Shown: piece by piece, positions 3,795 through 20,457 of the stretch | Layout: each line of letters opens with the position of its first letter | Position numbering within the stretch: the stretch's first letter is position 1 | Virus record (IMG/VR): IMGVR_UViG_3300008050_000207 | Coordinates: 1 to 28,931 of that record | Direction: 5' to 3' (one strand) | Length of the DNA stretch: 28,931 nucleotides | Source of the DNA: a virus | The notes under the pieces: generated by a model | Databases searched by the model: none | Seen by the model: the letters and a program-made list of their open reading frames with translations, nothing else | What the model was told of the DNA's origin: nothing | Translations under genes and position numbers: made by a program

Positions 3795-5381
3795 ATGGCA
3801 GTAGAAAACAGTGAAGTATTTTTAGGCAGCGGAGCAAATTTAACGTTTGTTCCTGAAGTGGACTTTTATTTTAAAGCGCAAGGAAGTAGCCAAACAGATA
3901 TTCAAATTGAAACAACTAATGCTGTTCAATTTCAATTAGTAACGGATATGTATGTTGGTTGCACTTTGGATTTTTATAATGATTCTGATTCTGATGTCGC
4001 AGGTTCATATACTTCTTCACATACTGTCACTTCTAATGACAATGATACCTTTACAATTACACCAGCAATTGAAGAAGCGGTCACGGCAGCAGATGAATTT
4101 GTTTTAAGAGGATATGGCGCACCATGTCCAGCCCCCGATTCAGATAATGATGGAAATGGTAGAGTTAGACTTAATGCTGATAATTGGCTTGGTCTTGTTG
4201 AATCAGCAGCATTTCCTAATTTAGAGATTGAAATGAAGCAATTAAATTTAGCATTGGGTGGAACAAGGAATTACACCCATCAATACAAAGGCATTGAAAC
4301 TGCTTCAGGTGGAAATTTAAATCTTGTTTGTCATCAGGCTACTTGGTTATATTACGCATTAGGATTATGTGAAGAGTTAACCCCTGCATCTACTTCCTCA
4401 AGTAATCATCCGAGTAATTATCATACGGCTAGTAGCACTGACCATAAATTATATTTCCACGGAACAAATGCTACTTCTCATATTAGTCAAGGGGCATTTA
4501 TTCACAGGGCTAATTGGAACTATGGTGCAACCCATATTGTTCCCCCGATAAATGAAAATATAGATGGCGCACCACAAACCCACTTTGATGATATTACTTA
4601 TCCAGTTCCTACAACTGGAGGTTTTATCACTTACAAATTCTCTGAATCTAATACTGCCCACTTACCTTCATTTGCTCTTGAGCAATCTATAAGTAAATTA
4701 GCAACCAATTTTTTGCGAACAGATACAGATTCCGATGCGGAAGATTTGAATTTTGTGAGAGTTGCTAGAGGTAATCGAGTTAATACATTAACCTTGACCG
4801 CTAATGAAAATGAAGAAGTAAAGATGACTTTAGATTTAAACACTAGGGCAGTTAATACTATTCCTCAAACAACGGCTTATGATTCAAGAGGTGGACAAGA
4901 AACGGCTAATGGGAGTTTATTCAATTTCACTACCGAACCAACACATCTTGAACCATTCTTTTTCTCAGATGGAACAATTAGTATTTATGGTCAAGAATTC
5001 CTAAAAATTACTAATTTCACATTAACAATAAATAATAATCTTCAAGATAAAAGATTCATAGGTATTGGAAATAGAAAAATTAAAGATGCTATTCCCGCAC
5101 AAAGAACATATGAAATTTCTTTATCGGCTATGGTCACAGATGATACACTATTTACTGAGTTATTAGATACTGCTGAGAATACTGCTTCGGGAGAATCAAT
5201 TAATTTGGTATTCACTAAAGATAGTGGGGAATCCCTAACACTTGATTTTGAAGATTATTTCACTACATCAAACACATGGACTATTCCTGAAGATAAAGGC
5301 CCAGTTATTGTTGAAGCGACTTTAATGCCGAGAACTCTAACCAATTGCACAACAGTAAGTCATTGGGTATTGCAGGGGTGA
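3795..5381 (+). CDS. Major tail tube protein, enlarged with accessory modules
   Basis: The best marker is at residues about 160-191, RNYTHQYKGIETASGGN followed by LVCHQATWLYYALG, which resembles the conserved strand-turn-helix region of tail tube proteins. Position after the terminator and before the tail chaperones agrees. The protein has 528 residues, against 150-300 for most tube proteins. Extra material includes an N-terminal module at about residues 29-110 (QTDIQIETTNAVQFQLV to EFVLRGYG) and Ser/Thr-rich stretches that could decorate the outside of the tail. The start has an eight-A run followed by GGTGA 8 bases before the ATG, an archaeal-style binding site. As the tube subunit it would be made in many copies. 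Confidence 0.68.
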   Translation: MAVENSEVFLGSGANLTFVPEVDFYFKAQGSSQTDIQIETTNAVQFQLVTDMYVGCTLDFYNDSDSDVAGSYTSSHTVTSNDNDTFTITPAIEEAVTAADEFVLRGYGAPCPAPDSDNDGNGRVRLNADNWLGLVESAAFPNLEIEMKQLNLALGGTRNYTHQYKGIETASGGNLNLVCHQATWLYYALGLCEELTPASTSSSNHPSNYHTASSTDHKLYFHGTNATSHISQGAFIHRANWNYGATHIVPPINENIDGAPQTHFDDITYPVPTTGGFITYKFSESNTAHLPSFALEQSISKLATNFLRTDTDSDAEDLNFVRVARGNRVNTLTLTANENEEVKMTLDLNTRAVNTIPQTTAYDSRGGQETANGSLFNFTTEPTHLEPFFFSDGTISIYGQEFLKITNFTLTINNNLQDKRFIGIGNRKIKDAIPAQRTYEISLSAMVTDDTLFTELLDTAENTASGESINLVFTKDSGESLTLDFEDYFTTSNTWTIPEDKGPVIVEATLMPRTLTNCTTVSHWVLQG

Positions 5382-5385
5382 TTAA

Positions 5386-5535
5386 ATGGCAAATTATGGC
5401 GATTTATACAGAGCGGCACTTGCTGAAAGAAAGGCTAAGGAAGTAGCAAAAGAAGCAAGGGCTAAGAAAGCCGCAGCAAAGAAAGCGGCTAAAGCAGAAC
5501 CGGAGGTTGCGGAATCATCCGAAACTTCTGAGTAA
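5386..5535 (+). CDS. 49-aa Lys/Ala-rich small protein
   Basis: The ATG at 5386 follows the tail tube stop, and the binding site GGGTGATT contains that stop codon. The 49 residues begin MANYGDLYRAAL and run into an uninterrupted Lys/Ala/Glu helix (KAKEVAKEARAKKAAAKKAA), ending in an acidic Ser/Glu tail. It resembles a small basic helical protein able to bind nucleic acid or act as a virion accessory, but I recognise no family. It lies between tail tube and tail chaperone, where some phages carry small tail accessory genes. The good ribosome binding site and tight packing support it as a real gene. Confidence 0.6.
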   Translation: MANYGDLYRAALAERKAKEVAKEARAKKAAAKKAAKAEPEVAESSETSE

Positions 5536-5545
5536 TGCGTTTTAA

Positions 5546-5585
5546 TTCCACCAACACGTTGTCCGTATGTTGGTAAGAGGTGGAA
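5546..5585 (+). promoter_or_regulatory. Hairpin able to mask the ribosome binding site of tail chaperone G
   Basis: ACCAACA (5550-5556) is perfectly complementary to TGTTGGT (5568-5574), leaving an 11-base loop. TTCCACC (5546-5552) is perfectly complementary to GGTGGAA (5579-5585), which contains part of the Shine-Dalgarno of the next gene. The two pairings compete over 5550-5552, or TTCC/GGAA can extend the first stem across an internal loop that holds AGAGGT. Either way the binding site would be partly buried in the mRNA. This is the longest spacer between + strand genes (53 bases). Complementarity is seen directly; a regulatory role is inferred. Confidence 0.5.
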
Positions 5586-5588
5586 AGA

Positions 5589-5984
5589 ATGTTAAATGGA
5601 AAAAAAGTAGTAGAGAATAAGAGTTTGCTGTTTGCAGCAAGTGAAGCGAAGTGCCACTTTGTTAAGGTTGCACCGAATGTAGAAGAATACTTGAAAGTGT
5701 GGGTTAAAGAACCCACATGGCTTCAAGTAGAACAGGCCATGAATTCTATCATGAAAATAGATAGTAAGAGTGGCGGAATGGATATTGATTTGAAAGCAAT
5801 GTATAATTACGCCATTGATAATTTCATAGAGAAGACTGAGCCTTCTCTATCCAAAGTAGATTTAATTCGATTGAGTCCCTTCGTGGGAAATCAACTCAAA
5901 GAAATCCTCCCTAATCCTTTACAGGATATGATGGGGGATGAAGTAAAAAACGAAGAATCCGAGATGCCATCCGTGGGAGAATAA
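5589..5984 (+). CDS. Tail assembly chaperone, short form (G-like)
   Basis: This 131-residue protein sits immediately before the tape measure gene, where tailed viruses encode the chaperone that coats the tape measure during tail assembly. It is a mixed alpha/beta protein (SLLFAASEAKCHFVKVAP at the start, then WLQVEQAMNSIMKI) with a helical middle and an acidic C-terminal tail (GDEVKNEESEMPSVGE). The ATG at 5589 is preferred over the in-frame GTG at 5580 because GAGGTG (5577-5582) sits 6 bases before it. Near the 3' end lies an in-phase slippery heptamer that produces a longer G-T fusion. Sequence similarity to a named chaperone is not obvious; the call rests on position plus the frameshift arrangement. 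Confidence 0.72.
   Translation: MLNGKKVVENKSLLFAASEAKCHFVKVAPNVEEYLKVWVKEPTWLQVEQAMNSIMKIDSKSGGMDIDLKAMYNYAIDNFIEKTEPSLSKVDLIRLSPFVGNQLKEILPNPLQDMMGDEVKNEESEMPSVGE
5945..5951 (+). other. Programmed -1 ribosomal frameshift site (A AAA AAC)
   Basis: The heptamer AAAAAAC lies in the G frame as GTA AAA AAC, the exact X XXY YYZ phase for simultaneous -1 slippage. The -1 frame is closed by a TGA just upstream (5939-5941) and open from 5942 to the TAG at 6161-6163. Slippage would therefore add 70 residues after Asn121 of G and give a 191-residue fusion. Tail chaperone G/GT pairs made by frameshift are well established in phages such as lambda. I see no strong stem-loop right downstream, only a weak CCA-TCCG-TGG hairpin at 5967-5976. 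Confidence 0.82.
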
Positions 5985-6163
5985 ACGACCCCAAAATGGT
6001 ATCTCTGATTACAGTTTATACCCTAGCGAAAGCGTTAGCGATAAGCCCATTAGAGATATACAAAATGCCAGCATCATTAGTTCAAGAATTATTAATTATT
6101 CACATAGAAGCCGAAAACTACAAAGCCGAGTTAATGGAGAAAGAATCGAAGAAGGTGAGATAG
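5951..6163 (+). CDS. Tail assembly chaperone frameshift extension (T-like)
   Basis: Read in the -1 frame after the slippery site, this segment encodes 70 residues: a basic linker (RRIRDAIRGRINDP), then a compact helical domain with LAKALAISPLEIYKMPASLV and LLIIHIEAENYKAELMEKE. This layout (helix, PxxIxxMP turn, long helix ending in a charged coiled stretch) resembles the T domains of phage tail chaperones, which bind the tape measure protein. An internal ATG at 5996 has no well-spaced binding site (GGGAGA is about 15 bases away), so independent translation is less likely. The TAG stop abuts the tape measure ATG. The product would act in the cytoplasm as the minor GT form. Confidence 0.75.
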   Translation, partial: RRIRDAIRGRINDPKMVSLITVYTLAKALAISPLEIYKMPASLVQELLIIHIEAENYKAELMEKESKKVR

Positions 6164-8083
6164 ATGGGTGAGGTAGACCAAACTAGAGAATCTTTGTCTG
6201 ATTTAAGTCAAATGATGGCTACCGTTGAACAACAGTCAATATCTCTCGCTAAACGCTTCGGGGATATGTCCGATGAAAGTAAAAAATGGACTTTCCTTAG
6301 CCGTATTCTTTCAGGAACAGGACTTTGGCGATTACAGAATAGGGTTCGGGCATTGGGACAAGGAATGAAATTCTATAAAGATACTCAATTAGATAAAGTG
6401 AAGGCTGATATTAAAGAAGCAGAAAGTATGGCTCAATTACAAAACGCTATGGAAAGTCAAAAAAATCAGCAAGAAGTATTACTCAAACTGAAGGAAAAAG
6501 GGGCCGAGAGAGCGGCTGAACATTTAGTAGAAGGAACTAGAGAATATGAACAGGCTATGAAAATTATTGACCAATATAAACTATTAAGGAAGACTGTTGA
6601 AGATACATCTCATGCTCAAGACGCTCATAAAATAGCCCTACAAAAAACAGCAGCAGCCTATGATGCAGTTGGAAATGCTATTGAAGAGATACAAGAAAAG
6701 CGAACAAAAAAATACCAAAAAGCGTTAGATAAGCAGGATAAAAAAGAAGAGATATTAGCAAAGAGGGAGATAATTAGACAGAGTAAAAATGATAAGTATT
6801 TACTAAAACAACAGAAAAAACTTGTGAAACAACATGTAGAAGCCAAAGAAAAACAAGCATTAGCATTGGCGGAAATAGAAAGACAGATTGAAAATAACGC
6901 ACTATCCGGTGATAAAACAAAAAAGAAATTATTTGATGAAAGAATGAAGGCCCAAGTAAAACTAGAAAAGCATCAGGGTTTAATTGATGACTCTAATATG
7001 GAAATAGTAAAACGAGGAAGTGCAGTAAGAAAAGGAACTAAGGCTAAAGGTAGATTAAAAGAATTAACCGGATTTAAAACCACCTTTACTAACGTGTTTA
7101 AAACAATAGCCAAACCTTTGATATTTCTAAAAGATAAAGTAGGTAGTGCGACTGAAAATTATCGAAACAATATAAGTAAAGCCAAAGGCTTGCGTAATAA
7201 ATTATCTGAAGGTTTTTCACCCATAACTAAAGTTATGAAATTCGCCGCAAAGAATCTCATGTGGTTCACATTATTATTAATGGGAGCATTCCTAGTATTC
7301 TCAATCATAAGAAAAATCTTTGAGAATGCTGAAGTTATGACTACCGTAATAGAGGGAATTAAAGGATTATTTGAAGGGGTAGCAATTATTTTTTCGGGAT
7401 TATTTGATATATTTGGGGCTTTCTTTGGAGGTGGAACCTTTGGAGAAAGGCTACAATTACTCTTAAAAGGTATTATGAAATTATGGGGCGGAATAGGAAA
7501 GATACTAATGACAGTATTAGGAGCGGGGATAAAACTACTTGGTGGTTTATTATTGGGAATACTGCAATTTATCCCTCAAATGTTATTTGCTGCCGGTATG
7601 TTATTAGGAAAAATAACACTCGGAATATGGAAGATGGCTTGGGAAGGATTTATAGCGTGGATGAGAGATACCCTTTGGGGTGCATGGATTAAACCAATAT
7701 TGGAACCTATGTTAAATCTAGTTCAGGGTGTAATAGATGCAATTAAGGGCGCAGGGGATTGGGTTTCTGATTCATATGATAACGTTACTAGTCTGGATTG
7801 GTGGGGGAAAACAATAAGCCCATTTGCAGATGGCGGCGTATCTAAAGGAGGAATGGCATTAGTAGGAGAAAGAGGACCGGAATTAGTTAATTTATCTAAA
7901 GGTTCAAGAGTCCATTCAAATGCAGATTCAAGAAAAATGATGGGTAATACAATCAATGTCAATGTTAGCGGAAGAGTGGGTTCAACAGATTCAGAACTCC
8001 GAGACATTGCAAAGAAAATAGGAAGAATGGTTTCTGCGGAAATAAACCGCACAACATCTTCATCAACAAATGTGAGGTTCTAA
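6164..8083 (+). CDS. Tail tape measure protein
   Basis: The tape measure sets tail length and leaves the tail during DNA entry. At residues about 70-300 there is a long, highly charged coiled coil. Hydrophobic segments follow: residues 364-386 (MWFTLLLMGAFLVFSII), about 402-425 (VAIIFSGLFDIFGAFFGGG), and further Gly/Leu/Ile-rich stretches to about 510. The C-terminal GGMALVGERGPELV motif near residue 560 is a signature of many siphovirus tape measures. At 639 residues, the usual rule of about 0.15 nm per residue predicts a tail of roughly 95 nm. It starts directly after the chaperone stop, with GGTGA upstream (6154-6158). No peptidase or lytic domain is visible. Confidence 0.88.
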   Translation: MGEVDQTRESLSDLSQMMATVEQQSISLAKRFGDMSDESKKWTFLSRILSGTGLWRLQNRVRALGQGMKFYKDTQLDKVKADIKEAESMAQLQNAMESQKNQQEVLLKLKEKGAERAAEHLVEGTREYEQAMKIIDQYKLLRKTVEDTSHAQDAHKIALQKTAAAYDAVGNAIEEIQEKRTKKYQKALDKQDKKEEILAKREIIRQSKNDKYLLKQQKKLVKQHVEAKEKQALALAEIERQIENNALSGDKTKKKLFDERMKAQVKLEKHQGLIDDSNMEIVKRGSAVRKGTKAKGRLKELTGFKTTFTNVFKTIAKPLIFLKDKVGSATENYRNNISKAKGLRNKLSEGFSPITKVMKFAAKNLMWFTLLLMGAFLVFSIIRKIFENAEVMTTVIEGIKGLFEGVAIIFSGLFDIFGAFFGGGTFGERLQLLLKGIMKLWGGIGKILMTVLGAGIKLLGGLLLGILQFIPQMLFAAGMLLGKITLGIWKMAWEGFIAWMRDTLWGAWIKPILEPMLNLVQGVIDAIKGAGDWVSDSYDNVTSLDWWGKTISPFADGGVSKGGMALVGERGPELVNLSKGSRVHSNADSRKMMGNTINVNVSGRVGSTDSELRDIAKKIGRMVSAEINRTTSSSTNVRF

Positions 8084-8875: not shown

Positions 8876-10663
8876 ATGTCAAGTTATAGAGTATATGCGG
8901 GCAATAAAAAAGCCTTAGTTTTTCCTATTATGGGAGATGCGTATGTTCATCTTGATTATTCTAAACACATTACAGATGAGGTTTATGGGCTATGGGGGCA
9001 TAAGTCATCTTTCACCATTGAAGCAATAGTGACCCCTTATGATGTGAATGGATTTGGATATAGATTAAATAAGGATTTATCCAGTAGTCAAACTCCTGAT
9101 TACCTTGAATCAGAATTCGGTCTACCTTTTATGAATAGATATTATTCTATGCCAGCACCAGCAACCACTACTACTTCTCGCTCTAACTCATACCTTTCTT
9201 ATGCGGATAGACTTGAACATAAAATGACTCTTTTCTATAATACTAATTGTGAGTTTTATCTTGAGAATCTAACTAGAACAAACATGAATCAACCTGCGGA
9301 ATATAAATTAGGTTGTGTAATAAAGGGAAAGAATGCGGCAGGGGCAACAAGAACAATTACCATTACAAGTAAAGCGCCCGTTATTACTGCTTCAAATCAA
9401 TATCATCTTAATCCCATAAAGCAAACTTTGGTGGGATTGAATACTTTTGGACAGCCTTTGTTTTTAGATGGTGAAGATGTTGTTAGGTATCACGCAATAA
9501 GAAATGATTCCGATAGTTCCTATGCTCGTATAATAAGACCTTTTCCCGATGCTGGAACTTCTCAATCTCTTACTGCCAATTTAGTTTATGATGGTGCTAC
9601 CATAACTTCAGCATCAGATACATTTCATGCTGATTTATCTACCGCATCATATATTCAGTTAACGGGAAGCAGCCATAATGACGGCTACTATAAAGTGAGT
9701 TCAGGGGCTAATTCAACCGCTATTACTTTATCTACCAGCAATTTATATTTTGGAGCAGATGCCAATAATATTACTGTTAAAAGAGTACCAGCAGATAATA
9801 GAATACAGTTTATGAGTAGTGGAGCAGATGCCGCTGCCGATATGGTTGATTCAATATGGATTGGAATGCCTATTTATGCTCAAACTCATGCCGGTGGAGT
9901 GTTTGCTGATGCTTCTGATAATATTATTCTTCCTGACCAAACAGAACCCATTGCTTTAGGTTATGTAGGAGCCTATCATGTTGGAGATAAAATTGCAGAT
10001 TTATACGGTGGGAAATTAGCGGCAGCGATAACTGCCACAGATGCCACTACAATTTATGTTGATGATAATAGATACTTTACAATAAACCGAACTATAAAAA
10101 TCGGTAGTGAAGAGATGCGAATTACTGCTATTTCTGGAAATGCTTTAACTGTCACTAGGGCGTATAATTCTACTACGGCTGCTACTGCTTCTGTTTCAGC
10201 AAATATTGAATTGTATTTACCTGATGATTTTATGGTTGGATTTAGAAATAAAGATTCAGGGGCTTATACTCAACCTTTGAGAACTGGAGTATTTGCATTA
10301 ACAGATGCCACCAAAGAAATAAATTATGTTTTGCGACCATTCCATGTTGCTATGGGATATGATAAAGCATCCCAAAAAGTTTCACTTTATTTAGATGGAG
10401 GGGAATTACAAACAGATGTGTATAATGCAGACGGAACATTAGTATTAGATTTCACCGATTTTGAATTTGAAGAATCAGACTGTTATTTCGGCTCCAATGG
10501 TAATGCTACTTTAGCCACAAGAAGGGCTAGTCAATTTATGGGAGAGATGCACGAATTATGTATAAGTGGAACGTACAAAAATGAATTTCAAACAATAGAT
10601 ACCCTTCTTCCTAATTATAGAAATAACCTGCTTTATTATAGATTTGAGGAGGCTAATCTATGA
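8876..10663 (+). CDS. LamG / concanavalin A-like lectin-fold tail protein
   Basis: The N-terminus (SSFTIEAIVTPYDVNGFG) and C-terminus (HVAMGYDKASQKVSLYLDGG, then MGEMHELCISGTYKN and LLYYRFEEANL) carry the spaced strand pattern of LamG-type laminin-G/concanavalin A-like domains, which often bind sugars. The two halves are separated by about 350 residues. That gap includes a module at bases 10030-10215 (RTIKIGSEEMRITAIS, LTVTRAYNSTTAAT) that recurs in the next gene. ATG 8876 is chosen; a GTG at 8867 would add three residues and overlap the previous stop, and neither has a strong binding site. Likely a tail-tip protein contacting the host surface. It ends with an ATGA overlap into the giant gene. 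Confidence 0.58.
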   Translation: MSSYRVYAGNKKALVFPIMGDAYVHLDYSKHITDEVYGLWGHKSSFTIEAIVTPYDVNGFGYRLNKDLSSSQTPDYLESEFGLPFMNRYYSMPAPATTTTSRSNSYLSYADRLEHKMTLFYNTNCEFYLENLTRTNMNQPAEYKLGCVIKGKNAAGATRTITITSKAPVITASNQYHLNPIKQTLVGLNTFGQPLFLDGEDVVRYHAIRNDSDSSYARIIRPFPDAGTSQSLTANLVYDGATITSASDTFHADLSTASYIQLTGSSHNDGYYKVSSGANSTAITLSTSNLYFGADANNITVKRVPADNRIQFMSSGADAAADMVDSIWIGMPIYAQTHAGGVFADASDNIILPDQTEPIALGYVGAYHVGDKIADLYGGKLAAAITATDATTIYVDDNRYFTINRTIKIGSEEMRITAISGNALTVTRAYNSTTAATASVSANIELYLPDDFMVGFRNKDSGAYTQPLRTGVFALTDATKEINYVLRPFHVAMGYDKASQKVSLYLDGGELQTDVYNADGTLVLDFTDFEFEESDCYFGSNGNATLATRRASQFMGEMHELCISGTYKNEFQTIDTLLPNYRNNLLYYRFEEANL

Positions 10664-13600
10664 CAACAGTTGGTAGTTTTACAGATGCTTCTTGTGACAC
10701 TAATCATACTTCAGGTTTATCTGATGGTTCAACTACAAGTGTAAGACATATAACTCATACTGCTAATGCGAGAATAGTTGTTGGTTCAGGGGTTAGTGGA
10801 ACAGGAATACCTACTGGAACTTTCATAGTAAAAAAGAATACTACAACGTGTTTTACAATAAGTGCTGATACTACGGCTACAAATACAAATACTACTCTTA
10901 CCTTTTCTAATATAACTAATGTTTTTGCTATGGGTAAAGCATCAACAGAAGGAACAACAGTTCAGGCTAAGATAAATGAAACAGCAGATAGCGCAGCAAA
11001 TTATACAGGTAATTTTTTAGAAAGTGCTATCTATAAAACACCTTTAAATCCATTATTATCAAGAGGGATGGTAAGTTTAGATTTTGCAGATTTTACAATG
11101 GTTAGTAATGCTACTGCAATAACAAGTTATGAAATACACCTTGCAGATTATACACCTTTAACTGATTCAGTGACAGGAATTAATATTTCAAATAGTTCAA
11201 CTCAAACTTATTCTTCAGTAAATAGAATATATCCTAATACTACTACTGTTAATGACTACCTTTCAAATTTGGAAACAACAAAAGGCCACGTTTTGAAAAC
11301 TTATGACTATCTTTCAAATGTAGGTCAAAGATTAATTACTGAAAGAACCACATTAAGCGGTAATGAAACTTCTACTGATACAACGGTAGCGGTAGCGAGT
11401 GCTACTAATTTAGCGGTTAATGATGTGATAATTGTTAATAATGAAGAGATGCTTATTACAGCAACTAGTGGAACTAATTTAACTGTTGAAAGAGGCTACA
11501 ATAATACAACTGCTACTGCTCATTCAAGTGGGGATTTAGTCTATGAAAAAGATTTACTCGATAACCTTTGGGTATTGGTTTATTCAGATGACCCTAATAC
11601 CCACCACTTTGCTAAAATAACTGAAATCCTTGAACATGATATTTATGGAGATGCAATAGAATTTACTCCATCTTTAAGTGCAGATATCCCAAAAGACACT
11701 AAGTTTGCAATATTCAAAGGTGGAACAATAAAAACAAATGATACCCTTGTTGCTTGTGCTTATGGTCTTCAGTCTGATAGTTCTAATAATAGACATTATA
11801 TGAACACGCATGTTTCTAAACCATTCTTTTATTTCACAAATGGAAAGGATAGATTAGAACCAGCAACAAGATATATTCTTAGAACCTCTTCTTGGAATGG
11901 TTCAGCGCACACTTATACCTATTCTACGTTCTTAACTGAACAAGCCTATAATGGAGTTATTGTAGATTCAGGGCCATTCACAATGGAAGCAACTCTTGTT
12001 GATATGATGTATAAAGCGGATAATCCTGCGGCTATGAATTTCTTAGAATATACAAGTGATAATTTAGAATTGGCTAATGGAACCCCCGATGCAATTACCA
12101 TAGTAACAGACGGAAGTTTTACTTTAGTAGGTTCCCATTTAGCATATTACACTAATTTAGATGGAACAGAAGGAACGAATTGGTCATTAACTGGAATATT
12201 AAAAGATTCAAGATTGGTTATTGATGGGGCGCAAGATGGTATTTATTGTATAGATAGTGATTCGACGCAAGGTGCTTTAACTATGGATGCAGGGGATTTT
12301 TCGGGAGGTTCAACTTCCCCTGATTTAATAATCAGGTTCTTAGCCCATGCAGTAGACTTAGACCACAACAAAATGTACTGTGCATTTGATTCTACCAACC
12401 ATTTAAAAAACTCATTTAGAATGGCACATAGACCTAATACTGAATCTTCTACCATTCATTATCAACATAATATGGGGCAATCAAGATATGCCTTTTATAC
12501 AGATTCTCCCTTAACCAATACAATAATTCCTAACATGATGGAAATGATTGATTATGAAGGAGTTTCAGCGTCGGGAGGATATGTAGATATTGTATTTGCA
12601 GACACGCAAAAAATCCTCGCTAAAAAGATTCAGCAGAATGATTCAATTACTATTCATCAAGTAATAGATGAGCAAGAAGTAGGTTCAGGAAGAAATATAG
12701 TTTTGGCTGGAACCTTTGAATATAATAGTGCTGGAACTACAATCACTGTAAAGGATTTAAACGAAGGAGAAGATTTGAGATATTTACTTGAAGCGGCTAT
12801 TCCTAATAACGATGATGGGGGGAATAAGTTATTTGAATCCTTTACAGTTATGACTTCAAGTGGTCCTTATCATATCCTTCCCGATACTATAGGCGCACCT
12901 TCAAGTAATACTCAAACCATTACTGTAAAGGAGTGGAGAAAATACTCAGATGCTCTTTATACCACTACCACTCCCGCTTCTTTTATTCCAGCATTTTCCA
13001 CTAACGCATATAGAAAAACATGGTCATTTGTTGCAGACAATGTAATGTTGCCCAATATTCCCATTGATAGTAAATTGGATAAAACATATGCTCAGATTAG
13101 AGATTTTGAAGATACAGTTGCTACTGATTTAACAGCAGCAACAGTCAACGAATTTAAAATTGGAGAAACCGTTCTTGAAAAAGCGTCGGAAAGTAGAATA
13201 CATGATATTAACTTAATATTAAGGGGTGGTCAACAGACGGGATTTAGAACAAATATTAATTTTGGAGATAGTAAAAACCAATTTGTTAAATTGAAAAATC
13301 CACTTCTCTTCGATAAAAAAATGAGTAATTTAGGTAAAGAACCAATTGATAGTGAATCGGAATTAGGATATGATATGAACACCACTATTGCTAAAGTGGC
13401 AAAAAGAAACCTTTCCAATGTTTCTTTCTATGGGCCAAATATTAATCCCAAAATAGATGGTGGCAGTAGTAATTACAGGTATGATTTAGATGGTGCTACT
13501 ACTGATGTTGCAGCCGCAAATCACGTCAGAGGAACCACTTCTTATCTTGATTACTTCACAGGAGCATTCAATATTGAAAAGAAAGTATTTTCAGGTGTTG

Positions 13601-16600
13601 TAGATAGTATTGAGCAAGTAGTAGAAGATGGAATGTTTAAACTAAAGATTAGAGGTAGAGATAATACTGCTGAATTATTGGGGCCAATCATCAATCAGAC
13701 TTTTAAATTTACAGAAGATATTGTTTATTCTACGGTGGGACCATTTGAACAAATGACTCCGGTTGCGGTAGTGGATTATCATACAGGTTCAAGTGAAACG
13801 AGTAAAGGGACTCAGGATTCTTATAACACTTATAATGCCGGCGCTACTATTATTGTAGCAGATATGGATGTTAATTTACAAGTTAACAGTCAAATAAATA
13901 AAGGAGATTTAATGTTTAATAAACGTGGAGATTTTGTAGGTAGAATACATAATTTACAGGGAACTAATGCTGGTAAAGATGGGGCCACAGATACAATAAT
14001 TACTTTTGAAGAAGGAATACCGCTTAGATTAAAAGATGGAGAGTGGCTATTTGCTAGTAGGAGATATTCAAGTGCAGACCTTTCAAATAGGGCCATAGAA
14101 GGGTTTGAAGATGATACTATAAGTAAATTACTAACTCAACCCATTAGAGGAAATACTGTATCTTTTGCTAAAGCGATGGCGGCAAATCCATATTCCACTA
14201 CTAGAGTTAATTCATTATTGGGTGCAGCAAATAAAGGAATCATATTTAATAATGGTAATTCATTATCATTGAGTGCTGATGGCGCACCGTATAGTGATAG
14301 CACTACATTGGTAGGCACTTCTAGTAGTTCTCACCCTCTAGCAAAGGGATATAGTATATCTTCACCTAATTCCATTGATTATGATTTACCTTTTTATTCA
14401 CACCTTTCGGATGAAATAACTGATAAATATACAGTAGATTATACTAATTTAGAAACGGTATCTTCAATAACTAATTATGATGTTGTAAATATAACTTCTG
14501 AAAACAATGAAACTATTGTAGAAATAGCACCTATTTGTCCAGCAATATTAGCAAGAGTAGATGACAACCCCTTAGATGGTAGAGATAAAACATTAGTTAG
14601 CACTACTGGGTTTAATGCTACATATTCTAAAGGGTTTCAGGGGCCAATGCAATTAGATGCGTCTTTAAAATTGAAATTGGGAGATGCTTTATTTGATTCG
14701 GATGGAGTTTTATTTGGAAAAGTAATTGATTTTTCAGACAGTTGGAGTTCAAGTGATGCTTCTGCAAGAAGAATGACTACATTAGATAGACCATTATCAA
14801 AGGATGTTACTGCTTCTACTACAATACACAAATATTTTTCTAATGCAAGCCCCCTTATGCCCACTTCATCTACTGCTATTGCTTTTGGTAATCAAACTAC
14901 AGACACACATTTTTCTGATGCTAATTGGCGACAAGCATATATTTTTACTGCAAGCACTACAAGCGCAATAGCACTAAACCTTCAAAAATTAAAATCGGGA
15001 ATGAAAATAGAATTAAGAGGAAGTGCAAATGAAGCCAATTGTGGAGTATTTACAGTCGATAGAGTGCGAATAGCAGGGACGAGTAGTACCTTTGTATATT
15101 TCACACCAAGAAAACATGACGGTGAAAGAAGAAACGCTTCAGGTTATGGGACATTTACAACAGAAAGTGCAACAGCGGAAATTTATATTACAGTTTTAAC
15201 CGACCATCATACTCAGGGATTATATTTCTTAAACACTCAGGGATTAAGTCAAGGTGGAGTCTTAACTTTAACCAATCCTTCTCTATCTAGCCCTAATGCC
15301 GCAGATGGTATTTGTAAACCTATTAAATGGGCTGAGAATATTAATCAACATTTTACAGACAATTCTATCACTTTAGATTATGATGGGTCAAGTTATACTC
15401 CGGCTTATAATTCAGTATATTCTGATTTCATTACAAGATATGGGAATACTAAATGGCGATATTTTGGCCTTCAAACTGGGCGTTCACTATCATATATTAA
15501 TAGACGTAGAAAAGATGGTAAAATAAAAGACACTTATACTAAGGAAAAAGGATTAGTTAGTGGTTATGCTACTGCATATAGAGTTGCAGATGCCTCACAT
15601 AGAAATGGTAAATTATATCAATATCCGTATAGTTTTCATAATAATGATTTTGCATGGGATGTTAGATGGTATTTTCCCAATGGTACACCAGCAGCCTTCT
15701 ATCAAACAATGTACGATAAAATAAATAAAAGAAAAGACCATCCATATTTCTTAGAGACTCTTTCTCCTGAATCAAGAGACTTCAAACCTGTTATGGGTAG
15801 TAATTTTGCAGATTTTGACAAATATCCAACATATAGAATCCTAGCGGGGGATAATGGAGGGCTTACCACTTCAGCAAATTATCGAGTATTAAACGTTCCA
15901 AGAAATATGCCAAGAATGCACGACAATTGGAAAGGTGGGGATTGGCAACATGATACAGAAGTTCCTGAAAATCCTTCTGATACTAGCACAACATATAAAA
16001 AATTAAGCGGGGCTACTTATCAATTCGCAATAACTACCAATGAAACTAAAATTGATTATTCTGCATTGAGTTCAGGAGCATTAGATGGACTAGTGAATAG
16101 TTGGGTTCAGATTTCAGGAGCCGCACAAAAAGCAAATAATCGAACAGTATTATTAGGTTCAGAAAGTAGCGATGTCATTACAATGGATGCCGCCCAAGCA
16201 CCATATAGAAATTTGAATGTAGTAGGTGGGGATGATGTTGGAGTTAGCGCAAATCACGGAATAACCGTTCTTTATCCGCCGTGGATTGGACCTAAATTCG
16301 ATGGAATAACTAGAGCAAAGGACCATTGGGAATTACCTGACCCTAAGACACTGCGCTGGTTTATTTTCTCCCCCGCTGATTTATACCCTGATAGTATGTC
16401 AAGAAAACACCACATTGGTTATTCTGGAATTATTGATGGTGGAACAGCAGTTAGTAGAAAGTTTACTGATTATGGAATCATGTTAAAAGGGCAGAGTAGT
16501 TTTTCAAGTAGTGGAACTCAACATGAATATTATGAAGGTTCTTTAAATGAAGAACAGGAAGTTGATGACCAATATGAAGTATTACCTATTACTGAAGCCT

Positions 16601-19600
16601 CTATTACTCCCTCTGAAATGAAAAGATTTGGATTGATGAGATTAATTGAATGTACTTATGATTGGCATTTTAATTTAATTGACCCTGAAAGAATGCCTAG
16701 AGATATGACTAAGATGACTACCCCTAATTTTGAATATACGAGGTATCAACCATTAAGATTATATGAAGATTTAGTGGTTGCTCATTACTTATCAGCCGAT
16801 GAATCTAGCCATAAGGATTTAGTGACTCAATTTACTGAATCATCTTGTACTGTAATTTCAGGGGATGCTACTGTGACGTGTAGTGATACTGATTATTTAA
16901 GAGTTGGAATGTTGGTCACTGGAACAAGTGTTCCCTCTAATTCCTATATTGCATCTATCACTGATGATACACATTTTGAATTAAATGCTAATGCTACCGG
17001 AAGTGGTTCACAAACAGTCGAACTTACTTATGGAACTTCAGCAGGTGCTACAAATACTACGTTTAGGGTCAACGACCATATCTTTACCCCTGAAGGTAGA
17101 TATATCGGGACTGTTCTACTTACTGAAAACTCCGGTTCTTCTACTACTGGAAACTTTACATGGACAGATTATATTAGGTTAAAAAATGGTGCTAAATTAC
17201 CTATTACTGGGTTAGATGAAACTACTGGATTAAAGTATTACGGTCCAATTGCTTCCTGTACTAATGCTACCGGAAGTGATTATGGCCATTTATATGATAG
17301 TTTTTATCAATTTCAAACAATGGGTAGGGGTGGCACTGCTAACTTCTGTGAACCTTCTACTGATAAGAAATTAAATATGTTGCAAATGATGTGGAATAGT
17401 GGTAGAGATGGTAGCGATGCTACTGACCAAGTATATTACGGAAATACATATTATGATAGTGGAACAAGTGGTACTAATTTTAACAATAGAGCAATAGGAA
17501 TTAATAATCCGGTATATAGGCAGCATTTTGGAAGAGATACAGATAATCATGCAGTTCCTTCGGGTGGTGGGTCGGCAGGAACAAATGATTACGGTGGATT
17601 AGAAGAATTAGTTCAAGATAATTTTACAACAGGTGGTTATGGCGTTATCGCTTTACCTGTGGCTTTTAAAACGTATTACCATTATGATTATACAACTCCT
17701 ACTCATAAAGCACGAAGTATTAACGCTTTACAAGAAAAAACATATTTAACTCATGGTAATGATTCTTCTGCTACTACTACTAATACCCAATATATTGAAT
17801 ATGCCCACCCTTCTAATATTTTAGAATCTTATCAGGCAAAATCACATTCTTCGGTTAATACTAAATTAAACCCGTATAATTATATGCACTGTGTAGCGTT
17901 AGGAAGATACTCAGTGGAAGATTCAGTGGGTATTAAGACTCCCATTGGTGGCGTTATTTCAACTAGTAATGATGGAAGTAGAGATTATTATGGGATAATA
18001 GCCGAGATGCGCTCAAAACCTTCTACTGGAACAGTAAATGCTGCCGCAAGATATGGTGATGGAGTAGGAGATTTAGATAGTGTAAGTATTACTAATGCTG
18101 AGATTGCTACATGGAATAGTAAATCTAAAGAATACTCTTACCCCTTTATAGTATCAGAATTTGACGATGGTTCATATGCTAAAATAACAGATAAAATGGA
18201 AAAAGATTCTTCTGCTGTTCCTATTTATCCTCAAGATACTTCTGCTTATATTGCCGATGGAGTATTTTGTGCATTTAAACCAATATTACATTTTCGCACT
18301 ACTGAATTAGCAGCACTCGCAGATGTAGCAGATGACAATGGAGCAAAAGGATATAAAAAATTCACATCAATTAATGGTAATACAGATATAGCGGTTTTAA
18401 AATTACTGACTGGGGTAAACACCACAGATTTTAATACTTGGTTAAATCATGTAGATTTAACTGGAATGTATTTGGTAGGTAATTACGGTTATCCTATTAA
18501 TGGTGAAAGTAAAACTAATTCCTCTTATCCATTTGATGACGGAGGTACTTGGTCAGAAAAAGCAAGGAGGGTAGACATTACTAGTAGCAAACATACTAGT
18601 ATGAACGATGCGGTAATTGAACCTAGAGTAATACATTATGTTTATTCACATAGGCGAAACGCTACTGGCGGAAGAGTTTCACATGAATTATTGATTGATA
18701 ACGTGACACTGAAAGATGATAATACTTTTTTTACAGTAGACACATATCGAGTTATGCGCCCTGCTGAAGTGTGTCTTTGGCCTAATAGCCCTGATGAAAT
18801 TGACATAAATACTTTAAGTTCAAGTTTAACAAAAAGGCCGAACTCAAACCAAATGTATGAAACTATCCCATCAATGTATGTTGTAGATGAAAATTTTGAA
18901 TTTAAAGGTTCAAGAGAATCTCCCTCTTTTGGTAGTAAAACGGGAGAATTAGGAGAAAATGAAGCGGTTCTATCAATGTATGTTGCAGTAGATATGGATT
19001 CAAAACATGCCCAGTATAAACAGTTGACGGGTAATGGGGCGGGTGTTGCTGGCTCTAAAGCATTGACTCATGGTGGAGTGTCTACTGCATTTGAAACGGA
19101 TGGATTATTAGCAGGTGATAAAATTAAAATTGGTACACAATTTACTTATGTGGATAAAATTGAAGATGAAACAAATTTAACCTTAACAGATGCTATATTA
19201 AATGCGGGTACATATACGCTTTATTTAGCCAATAATACATATACAGTTTTAAGAGATTATATTCACTTATTTAATCCAACAGGGAATCGTGGCACTTTTA
19301 AGAATGGTGAAGCATATGGTATGTATTTAACTGATGGTAATACTAATTTAAAAACAAGTATGGGAGTAGAATGCGATTATTATGACGTTTCTCCAAAGTG
19401 TTCAATTAAACTAGGTAAAAAGGTTTCAGAGCCTATGGTGGGAATAATTTCCTTTGGGGAGACATTTTTCATAAAGAGTAATATTCCTACTAAAAATAGT
19501 GATGCTGTTAGTGCAAAAATAGGTTCAACGGTCACCATAGGTAGTGAAGTAGAAGATGTCGTCAATGACCTTTTAGCCAATGAAAACATACCTTATGACA

Positions 19601-20457
19601 TATCAGATAATCGGGAATATCCATATTACATCGCTCCTAATTTTCAGGGCGTTGACCTATACACAGCAGTTAATTTCGCTGCTAAATATAAAGATAAAGA
19701 AGTCAGGGTGGATGAAACAGGATTATTCCTACGCAAGCAAACTAGAGATTTAGACCTGCAAGATATTACTCTATCCTATAAAAATACAGACCTCAACATA
19801 ATAGAAGTTTCACGCAATAAATCTACATTTGACCTTTACAATGAAGTAATTGTTTATGGAAGTGGAGTTCGCTCAGTACGTCGCAATAGAGCCTCCATAG
19901 AGAAATTCAAAAAGAAAACTTTAGAGGATGTCAACATGGAATTGACCACTCAAGATGATGTTGATAAAAGGGCCATTTCACTTCTCAGGGCGCATTCAGA
20001 AGGTGATGATAGACTCACAATAAAGATGGGTAAAGCGGGAATTGAGTTTGTTAAAGCGGGGGATATAATCACCGTTGATTTACCTGAAGAGGGCATAACA
20101 AAAAGTCAATATAAAATCTATGAGATAAGGAGAGAATTGGCCGGACTTATTGAATTAGAGGTTGGAACCTATCGAAAGGATTTAGCCGCTCGATTTGCAG
20201 AATTAGCCATTCAGAATAAATCTAATACTGCATCTATTCGTGGTAGTAATTTCTTAACCACTGTTCCTCCACTTGATTTCTTCGATAAGATTAAACTAAA
20301 GGAGTTGCGCCTAATAATCAAGAGGACAGGATTAGCCGACGCAACCTCATTCACATTAGGATTCCAAACATTAGAAGCGAGAAAATTAGATTTTGGAACA
20401 ACAATGGGACCAGCAGATGTAGTAGTGGAAATAGTAAGGGATGTTGATTTAGTATGA
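10660..20457 (+). CDS. Giant 3265-aa tail hub / tip protein with inserted beta modules
   Basis: Two parts look like tail hub (Tal/gpD/gp27-like) sequence. Residues about 977-1010 contain VFSGVVDSIEQVVEDGMFKL and IRGRDNTAELLG. Residues about 2995-3200 contain VDLYTAVNFAAKYKDKEV, LYNEVIVYGSGV and a basic/acidic region ending GDIITVDLPEEG. The roughly 2,000 residues between them are Ser/Thr/Asn/Tyr-rich and beta-like. Small modules recur: near residues 45-85 (GTGIPTGTFIV), 245-297 (NEEMLITATSGTNLTVERGY), 1079, 1338, 2066-2125, 2136 and 2815. Three share a GD-x-hF-x3-G-x-hhG pattern. No enzymatic motif is evident. The whole frame of 9.8 kb is open with consistent codon use, so it is a single gene. 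It probably forms the tail tip and may carry receptor-binding surfaces. Confidence 0.72.
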   Translation: MTTVGSFTDASCDTNHTSGLSDGSTTSVRHITHTANARIVVGSGVSGTGIPTGTFIVKKNTTTCFTISADTTATNTNTTLTFSNITNVFAMGKASTEGTTVQAKINETADSAANYTGNFLESAIYKTPLNPLLSRGMVSLDFADFTMVSNATAITSYEIHLADYTPLTDSVTGINISNSSTQTYSSVNRIYPNTTTVNDYLSNLETTKGHVLKTYDYLSNVGQRLITERTTLSGNETSTDTTVAVASATNLAVNDVIIVNNEEMLITATSGTNLTVERGYNNTTATAHSSGDLVYEKDLLDNLWVLVYSDDPNTHHFAKITEILEHDIYGDAIEFTPSLSADIPKDTKFAIFKGGTIKTNDTLVACAYGLQSDSSNNRHYMNTHVSKPFFYFTNGKDRLEPATRYILRTSSWNGSAHTYTYSTFLTEQAYNGVIVDSGPFTMEATLVDMMYKADNPAAMNFLEYTSDNLELANGTPDAITIVTDGSFTLVGSHLAYYTNLDGTEGTNWSLTGILKDSRLVIDGAQDGIYCIDSDSTQGALTMDAGDFSGGSTSPDLIIRFLAHAVDLDHNKMYCAFDSTNHLKNSFRMAHRPNTESSTIHYQHNMGQSRYAFYTDSPLTNTIIPNMMEMIDYEGVSASGGYVDIVFADTQKILAKKIQQNDSITIHQVIDEQEVGSGRNIVLAGTFEYNSAGTTITVKDLNEGEDLRYLLEAAIPNNDDGGNKLFESFTVMTSSGPYHILPDTIGAPSSNTQTITVKEWRKYSDALYTTTTPASFIPAFSTNAYRKTWSFVADNVMLPNIPIDSKLDKTYAQIRDFEDTVATDLTAATVNEFKIGETVLEKASESRIHDINLILRGGQQTGFRTNINFGDSKNQFVKLKNPLLFDKKMSNLGKEPIDSESELGYDMNTTIAKVAKRNLSNVSFYGPNINPKIDGGSSNYRYDLDGATTDVAAANHVRGTTSYLDYFTGAFNIEKKVFSGVVDSIEQVVEDGMFKLKIRGRDNTAELLGPIINQTFKFTEDIVYSTVGPFEQMTPVAVVDYHTGSSETSKGTQDSYNTYNAGATIIVADMDVNLQVNSQINKGDLMFNKRGDFVGRIHNLQGTNAGKDGATDTIITFEEGIPLRLKDGEWLFASRRYSSADLSNRAIEGFEDDTISKLLTQPIRGNTVSFAKAMAANPYSTTRVNSLLGAANKGIIFNNGNSLSLSADGAPYSDSTTLVGTSSSSHPLAKGYSISSPNSIDYDLPFYSHLSDEITDKYTVDYTNLETVSSITNYDVVNITSENNETIVEIAPICPAILARVDDNPLDGRDKTLVSTTGFNATYSKGFQGPMQLDASLKLKLGDALFDSDGVLFGKVIDFSDSWSSSDASARRMTTLDRPLSKDVTASTTIHKYFSNASPLMPTSSTAIAFGNQTTDTHFSDANWRQAYIFTASTTSAIALNLQKLKSGMKIELRGSANEANCGVFTVDRVRIAGTSSTFVYFTPRKHDGERRNASGYGTFTTESATAEIYITVLTDHHTQGLYFLNTQGLSQGGVLTLTNPSLSSPNAADGICKPIKWAENINQHFTDNSITLDYDGSSYTPAYNSVYSDFITRYGNTKWRYFGLQTGRSLSYINRRRKDGKIKDTYTKEKGLVSGYATAYRVADASHRNGKLYQYPYSFHNNDFAWDVRWYFPNGTPAAFYQTMYDKINKRKDHPYFLETLSPESRDFKPVMGSNFADFDKYPTYRILAGDNGGLTTSANYRVLNVPRNMPRMHDNWKGGDWQHDTEVPENPSDTSTTYKKLSGATYQFAITTNETKIDYSALSSGALDGLVNSWVQISGAAQKANNRTVLLGSESSDVITMDAAQAPYRNLNVVGGDDVGVSANHGITVLYPPWIGPKFDGITRAKDHWELPDPKTLRWFIFSPADLYPDSMSRKHHIGYSGIIDGGTAVSRKFTDYGIMLKGQSSFSSSGTQHEYYEGSLNEEQEVDDQYEVLPITEASITPSEMKRFGLMRLIECTYDWHFNLIDPERMPRDMTKMTTPNFEYTRYQPLRLYEDLVVAHYLSADESSHKDLVTQFTESSCTVISGDATVTCSDTDYLRVGMLVTGTSVPSNSYIASITDDTHFELNANATGSGSQTVELTYGTSAGATNTTFRVNDHIFTPEGRYIGTVLLTENSGSSTTGNFTWTDYIRLKNGAKLPITGLDETTGLKYYGPIASCTNATGSDYGHLYDSFYQFQTMGRGGTANFCEPSTDKKLNMLQMMWNSGRDGSDATDQVYYGNTYYDSGTSGTNFNNRAIGINNPVYRQHFGRDTDNHAVPSGGGSAGTNDYGGLEELVQDNFTTGGYGVIALPVAFKTYYHYDYTTPTHKARSINALQEKTYLTHGNDSSATTTNTQYIEYAHPSNILESYQAKSHSSVNTKLNPYNYMHCVALGRYSVEDSVGIKTPIGGVISTSNDGSRDYYGIIAEMRSKPSTGTVNAAARYGDGVGDLDSVSITNAEIATWNSKSKEYSYPFIVSEFDDGSYAKITDKMEKDSSAVPIYPQDTSAYIADGVFCAFKPILHFRTTELAALADVADDNGAKGYKKFTSINGNTDIAVLKLLTGVNTTDFNTWLNHVDLTGMYLVGNYGYPINGESKTNSSYPFDDGGTWSEKARRVDITSSKHTSMNDAVIEPRVIHYVYSHRRNATGGRVSHELLIDNVTLKDDNTFFTVDTYRVMRPAEVCLWPNSPDEIDINTLSSSLTKRPNSNQMYETIPSMYVVDENFEFKGSRESPSFGSKTGELGENEAVLSMYVAVDMDSKHAQYKQLTGNGAGVAGSKALTHGGVSTAFETDGLLAGDKIKIGTQFTYVDKIEDETNLTLTDAILNAGTYTLYLANNTYTVLRDYIHLFNPTGNRGTFKNGEAYGMYLTDGNTNLKTSMGVECDYYDVSPKCSIKLGKKVSEPMVGIISFGETFFIKSNIPTKNSDAVSAKIGSTVTIGSEVEDVVNDLLANENIPYDISDNREYPYYIAPNFQGVDLYTAVNFAAKYKDKEVRVDETGLFLRKQTRDLDLQDITLSYKNTDLNIIEVSRNKSTFDLYNEVIVYGSGVRSVRRNRASIEKFKKKTLEDVNMELTTQDDVDKRAISLLRAHSEGDDRLTIKMGKAGIEFVKAGDIITVDLPEEGITKSQYKIYEIRRELAGLIELEVGTYRKDLAARFAELAIQNKSNTASIRGSNFLTTVPPLDFFDKIKLKELRLIIKRTGLADATSFTLGFQTLEARKLDFGTTMGPADVVVEIVRDVDLV

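Follow-up and report, generated by a model that had tools for sequence, protein, structure and literature searches.

Two overlapping reading frames of a magrovirus-like archaeal tailed virus, here called G and T, are almost certainly a single tail assembly chaperone gene expressed by -1 ribosomal frameshifting. The evidence is the phase of the slip site, its conservation, synonymous selection, covariation and homology, all read from sequence. The window, by which we mean the whole stretch analysed (28,931 nucleotides, IMG/VR record IMGVR_UViG_3300008050_000207), carries the pair between two tail genes, in the order tail tube, G/T, tape measure (Table 1). In the model that we infer, which covers the slippage itself, its efficiency, the parts played by the stimulators and the role in tail assembly, the majority of ribosomes would translate G through to its stop at 5982, and a minority would slip by -1 at A AAA AAC, where the tRNAs of Lys120 and Asn121 would re-pair on AAA AAA before translation continues in the -1 frame to give a G-T protein. 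Slippage would be stimulated from upstream by pairing of GGGGG (or AGGAGG) with the anti-Shine-Dalgarno of the 16S rRNA, and from downstream by a stem-loop that would meet the ribosome about 5 nt past the heptamer. Phage lambda suggests, by analogy, a division of labour in which G would form a coat on the tape measure protein and the T domain of G-T would bring in the tail tube protein. This is a known trick of tailed viruses, encountered here in a new group and in a very well supported case, the signal being better defined than in the archaeal viral cases from the literature that we compared.

Table 1. Features of the window around the G/T junction, and related loci with a different frame relation
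Feature	Position	Strand	Basis
Tail tube protein gene, upstream of G	3795..5381	+	Pfam Phage_tube_2, E 1.2e-16
Gene G, tail assembly chaperone, 131 aa when decoded normally	5589..5984	+	ORF, PHROG families, predicted fold
Shine-Dalgarno-like GGGGG inside G, 6-7 nt ahead of the heptamer	5934..5938	+	Anti-Shine-Dalgarno duplex energy, codon choice in relatives
Slippery heptamer A AAA AAC	5945..5951	+	Phase; in-phase X XXY YYZ in 175/175 distinct relatives
T extension, -1 frame, 70 aa, TAG 6161-6163	5951..6163	+	PHROG phrog_9001, conservation in 70 relatives, helical model
Candidate stimulatory stem-loop	5956..6010	+	z = -5.87; covariation in 43 relatives; mean z peak after the heptamer
Tape measure protein gene, directly 3' of T	6164..8083	+	PHROG tape measure families, E about 1e-6
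Loci with T in the -2/+1 frame: L051, L087, L146, L147, L149, L151, L156, L157, L158, L171, L172			G/T junctions

Reading frames and protein families at the junction

Gene G opens with an ATG at 5589 and runs for 131 codons to a TAA (5982-5984), and the heptamer consists of the third base of codon 119 followed by AAA (Lys120) and AAC (Asn121). The -1 frame is closed by a TGA at 5939-5941, is open from 5942 to 6160 and ends in a TAG directly followed by the tape measure ATG at 6164; the predicted G-T product thus combines 121 and 70 residues into 191. An earlier note on this DNA, made from the letters alone, had reported the coordinates of the heptamer and of the -1 stop ahead of it, the slippery phase, the open -1 frame, the abutting TAG and ATG and the 191-residue product, and our check of the reading frames reproduced them all. 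The layout recurs in relatives: in 72 of 76 clusters the end of T is followed by a long ORF that begins no more than 10 nt away.

Sequence, fold and gene order all place G and T in tail-assembly-chaperone families. The PHROG tail assembly chaperone family phrog_25860 was matched by G of 57 out of 71 relatives, and T, which is conserved as a protein across 70 relatives, matches the tail assembly chaperone family phrog_9001 (E 2e-6). The fold of G was predicted with a pLDDT of 84, and that of T, which the earlier note had described as a helical domain, is a confident helical model (pLDDT 94). A structure search of BFVD with the G model retrieved the chaperone of HHTV-2 (E 1.8e-6). Against the PDB, Foldseek returned nothing significant for this model, and a second comparison gave modest scores (YqbN 3klu, Z 6.2; 3fgx, Z 4.1; HK97 chaperone 2ob9, Z 3.8). 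Neither blastn nor tblastn found a close relative of the window region among named phages, and the only named phages matched by G were haloviruses, weakly (E about 6).

The surroundings of the pair hold three further features. A small Lys/Ala-rich ORF (49 aa, 5386-5535) lies between the tail tube and chaperone genes, and similar Lys-rich ORFs occupy the equivalent place in L095 and L146. The leader of G (about 5546-5586) contains a conserved nested inverted repeat, TTCCACCAACAC...GTATGTTGGTAAGAGGTGGAA, of which the TCCACC is able to pair with the Shine-Dalgarno of G (GGTGGA); the strict motif occurs upstream of G in 118 of the 175 relatives, these loci having it at no other place, and the repeat may control the translation of G. 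Within the tail module, a single ORF of 3265 residues (10660-20457) takes up about one third of the window, and its product is probably a giant tail fibre or an adhesin-like protein.

The slip site and its flanking elements

The loci compared come from IMG/VR, where G served as query in a protein search and in two profile searches and T in one search; they collapse to 175 distinct G/T sequences, which form 80 clusters when grouped at 85% identity. All 175 show an in-phase X XXY YYZ close to the 3' end of G. The G protein sequences together with viral codon usage would lead one to expect this in 43% (35% at the exact site), and the result also holds across the 80 clusters. Most are AAAAAAC, followed by GGGAAAC/A/T/G, AAAAAAA and AAAAAAG. 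A chance heptamer is set aside by this conservation; the frequency of AAAAAAC in the window is by itself as expected (10 found, 13 expected), so that conservation, and not presence, carries the argument. Codon 0 of the slip site is either AAA (112 loci) or GGA (63 loci), and the base that precedes GGA is always G, which means that the X bases change in concert. On a tree of G and T the window falls in the AAAAAAC lineage, and switches between A-type and G-type sites require about three steps, the X bases changing together each time. The asparagine codon of the slip site is AAC in 56 of 62 clusters versus a background of 26% (P 1e-26, 80 clusters); AAT is three times commoner than AAC in these genomes, and the heptamer AAAAAAT is absent among the relatives. 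This preference suggests a role in these hosts for the tRNA that reads AAC in the A site, or for the pairing once the slip has occurred. A search of Rfam gave no match at the slip site.

Upstream of the heptamer, codons -5 to -3 of G are chosen so as to give GGRGG (80 clusters). Glycine at codon -4 is GGG in 47 of 51 clusters (background 11%), glutamate in this stretch is GAG in 27 of 27 (background 18%) and glutamine at codon -5 is CAG in 21 of 21 (background 16%), with P values for synonymous selection down to 3e-41 across the 80 clusters; the spacing to the heptamer is 7 nt in 54 of 60 clusters. For the host 16S rRNA we assumed the general anti-Shine-Dalgarno consensus rather than one taken from a host sequence. 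The GGGGG of the window pairs with this consensus, which may not be that of the host, at -10.5 kcal/mol, the 0.4th percentile of random positions. Among the gene starts of the window, 18 of the 20 checked have a Shine-Dalgarno-like pairing within the best 10% of random positions, which indicates that the translation system of the virus uses this pairing. The element probably stimulates slippage, and the selection on its codons strongly supports what the earlier note had offered as a guess, an internal Shine-Dalgarno as stimulator.

The same note had seen no strong stem downstream, which proved wrong. In the window fold, arms at 5956-5970 and 5996-6010 pair with one mismatch and carry an apical helix (5974-5977 with 5990-5993); the z of about -5.9 is accompanied by covariation in the relatives. 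Mean z is -2.8 just after the heptamer, and at more distant positions it ranges from 0.0 to -1.3 (80 clusters). When this named structure was followed through 43 A-type clusters, 80 double-change cells were counted, versus 36 +/- 6 in shuffled and 22-38 in slid controls; RNAalifold alone, run on the same diverse set of 43 sequences, did not find a consensus structure. Of the A-type clusters, 44 of 45 have the stem-loop in their predicted fold, as do both -2 clusters, but only 23 of 33 clusters of GGGAAAN type. It begins 4 nt beyond the heptamer in the MFE structure of the window and 5 nt beyond it in the 43-sequence alignment, the latter within the distance of about 5-9 nt expected of a structure downstream of a -1 frameshift site, and it probably acts as the second stimulator of slippage.

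Could T instead be a gene of its own, translated alone or by re-initiation after the G stop? The window does have a T-frame ATG at 5996, 11 nt past the stop of G, and some ATG precedes the T core in frame in 111 of the 175 relatives. Yet this ATG lies inside the 3' arm of the conserved stem and has no Shine-Dalgarno, in contrast to 18 of the 20 starts checked, so that the earlier note was right to find T devoid of a well-spaced binding site. Ahead of the conserved core, the T frame contains no ATG, GTG or TTG in 28 of the 175 loci and no ATG in 64, and an ATG or GTG with Shine-Dalgarno pairing is present in only 13; to judge from these frames, most relatives provide no start from which T could be translated independently. 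Moreover, the T residues between the slip site and the window ATG are conserved, even in comparison with the halovirus HVTV-1 (IRDAIRGR / VRAAIRGR), and separate genes would give the heptamer no reason to persist. The earlier note had proposed to look in relatives for conservation of the heptamer and its phase, and had named as the case against its reading a lost heptamer with G and T separate and a good start for T. What we found is the opposite, with the in-phase heptamer kept in 175 of 175 and no T start codon in 28, and we consider independent translation of T extremely unlikely.

That the frames are joined by transcriptional rather than ribosomal slippage, through stuttering of the polymerase on the run of A, is scarcely credible to us. 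Runs of 6-7 A do make up the majority of slip sites, but they are shorter than the 9-base runs reported for transcriptional slippage in bacteria (PMC5009743), and 63 of the 175 sites are GGGAAAN without any long run, which argues against such stuttering. The Shine-Dalgarno-like element and the stem, furthermore, are signals that act on ribosomes. Frameshifting by the ribosome is the reading retained here.

A sublineage with a changed frame relation

In 11 distinct relatives among the 175 (Table 1), T lies in the -2 (or +1) frame with respect to G. All 11 have the sequence GAA AAA AAG (A7G) with AGGAGG 7 nt upstream, and on the tree of G and T they are nested in one clade of A-type sequences. 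As they form one clade and come from many metagenomes, sequencing error is unlikely. L016 and L051 had been considered as broken T genes, which we rejected, both belonging to the -2/+1 group. In three other relatives (L035, L070 and L085) the local site is as in this group, yet T is in the -1 frame.

Two mechanisms would fit the sequence of the A7G sites, either slippage by -2, with both Lys tRNAs re-pairing on AAA, or slippage by +1 of the tRNA in the P site. The -2 slip seems likelier, since the conserved GAA before the site is needed for it and since -2 frameshifting is known in the decoding of phage Mu (PMC5009743). On balance, and with some reserve, we favour the view that marine archaeal viruses share a conserved three-part signal of the dnaX type and that in one sublineage the slip went from -1 to -2 on A7G with the pair of proteins unchanged. 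If true, this would show the size of a frameshift changing naturally within an archaeal translation system. The sites would offer short cassettes for asking how archaeal ribosomes slip, whether anti-Shine-Dalgarno pairing stimulates slippage in archaea and what determines -1 versus -2.

Viral affiliation and known frameshifting systems

By gene content the virus very probably fits the Magrovirales, viruses of Poseidoniales, a placement from which we infer the host. Magrovirales are described as having a split PolB, an ATP-dependent ligase, a chaperonin, a TFB-like protein and an SF1 helicase in genomes of 90-110 kb (PMC10768690, PMC12999244). PolB is present in all of 10 relatives; nine have it divided between two ORFs, and the tenth, which is a fragment, shows one of the parts. 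The ERCC4-type nuclease of the window is present in 10 of 10 at 52-57% identity. One relative of 96 kb (G005) also encodes an ATP-dependent ligase, a cpn60/TCP-1 protein, a TFIIB zinc ribbon, a UvrD-type helicase and a prohead protease. The window, a fragment of 28.9 kb, is tied to the Magrovirales through the shared ERCC4 nuclease and G/T, and not through a PolB of its own. Pfam PCNA had no match in the relatives, and Pfam MCM (2 of 11 relatives) and TFIIB (1 of 11) matched weakly, below the curated cut-off, and were left out as archaeal markers. A scan of genome contigs returned no provirus, host or relative.

A bacterial host, which would turn the junction into an ordinary bacteriophage frameshift, appears very unlikely. 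Frameshifts in tail chaperones are known mostly from bacteriophages, and the N-terminal part of PolB of one relative matches a cyanophage PolB at similar identity. Against this, the split PolB, the ERCC4-type nuclease found in all 10 relatives and, from one of them, the ligase, TCP-1/cpn60 and the TFIIB-type zinc ribbon constitute the Magrovirales gene set (PMC10768690); the ERCC4 nuclease matches only viruses of Methanobacteriales among named phages, and G matches haloarchaeal chaperones, albeit weakly.

The earlier note's reading of a frameshifted tail chaperone in an archaeal virus is upheld by the 175 conserved heptamers, but the novelty that it implied is not, since frameshift sites had already been predicted in the haloarchaeal tailed viruses HVTV-1, HCTV-1/2/5 and Hardycor1 (PMC5009743, PMC8211752, PMC7911831). 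HVTV-1 and HCTV-5 (Druskaviridae) are annotated with a joined G / G-T ahead of the tape measure gene; they have G GGA AAG as the slip site close to where G ends, a Shine-Dalgarno-like GGAGG before it and alignable residues 40-129 of G (hhalign E 1e-5, probability 82%), and HVTV-1 has a similar -1 peptide right after the slip. They differ in the spacing between GGAGG and heptamer (about 10 nt versus 7 nt here) and in a longer T (about 125 aa), their sequences are very distant, and in HVTV-1 the downstream stem is not significant (z -1.0). The Druskaviridae are reported to have arisen among marine archaeal viruses (PMC8651126), which fits the chaperone layout shared with HVTV-1. For Hardycor1, G GGA AAT was predicted at the equivalent place upstream of the tape measure gene (PMC7911831), but from one or two genomes without a broad comparison, and this heptamer is among the rarer types here.

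Among bacterial systems, gpG / gpGT of phage lambda likewise slips by -1 close to the end of G, with T read in the -1 frame and the tape measure gene directly after; its host, however, is bacterial, we found no sequence match, and the stoichiometry of G and G-T may differ here. The dnaX gene of E. coli combines an internal Shine-Dalgarno, a slippery heptamer and a downstream stem-loop as here, but the gene is unrelated and its heptamer is A AAA AAG, whereas heptamers ending in AAC are favoured here. FS-gp41 of phage Mu, a -2 tail assembly protein, resembles the G fold weakly (E 0.04), and its shift (PMC5009743) has a parallel in the 11 relatives whose T is in the -2/+1 frame, while the window itself uses -1.

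A literature search, of incomplete coverage, returned no report treating magroviruses and tail-gene frameshifting together, and frameshifting is not mentioned in the ICTV profile, where a tail assembly chaperone is annotated. The comparison of 175 loci defines the whole signal including its stimulators, apparently in viruses of very abundant ocean archaea, and annotations of magrovirus genomes should join T to G. One record among the relatives (L023, as a genome G001; IMGVR_UViG_3300021958_000021, 184,733 bases) contains two sets of split PolB and a pair of different ERCC4 nucleases, and seems to be two distinct magrovirus genomes joined or binned together.
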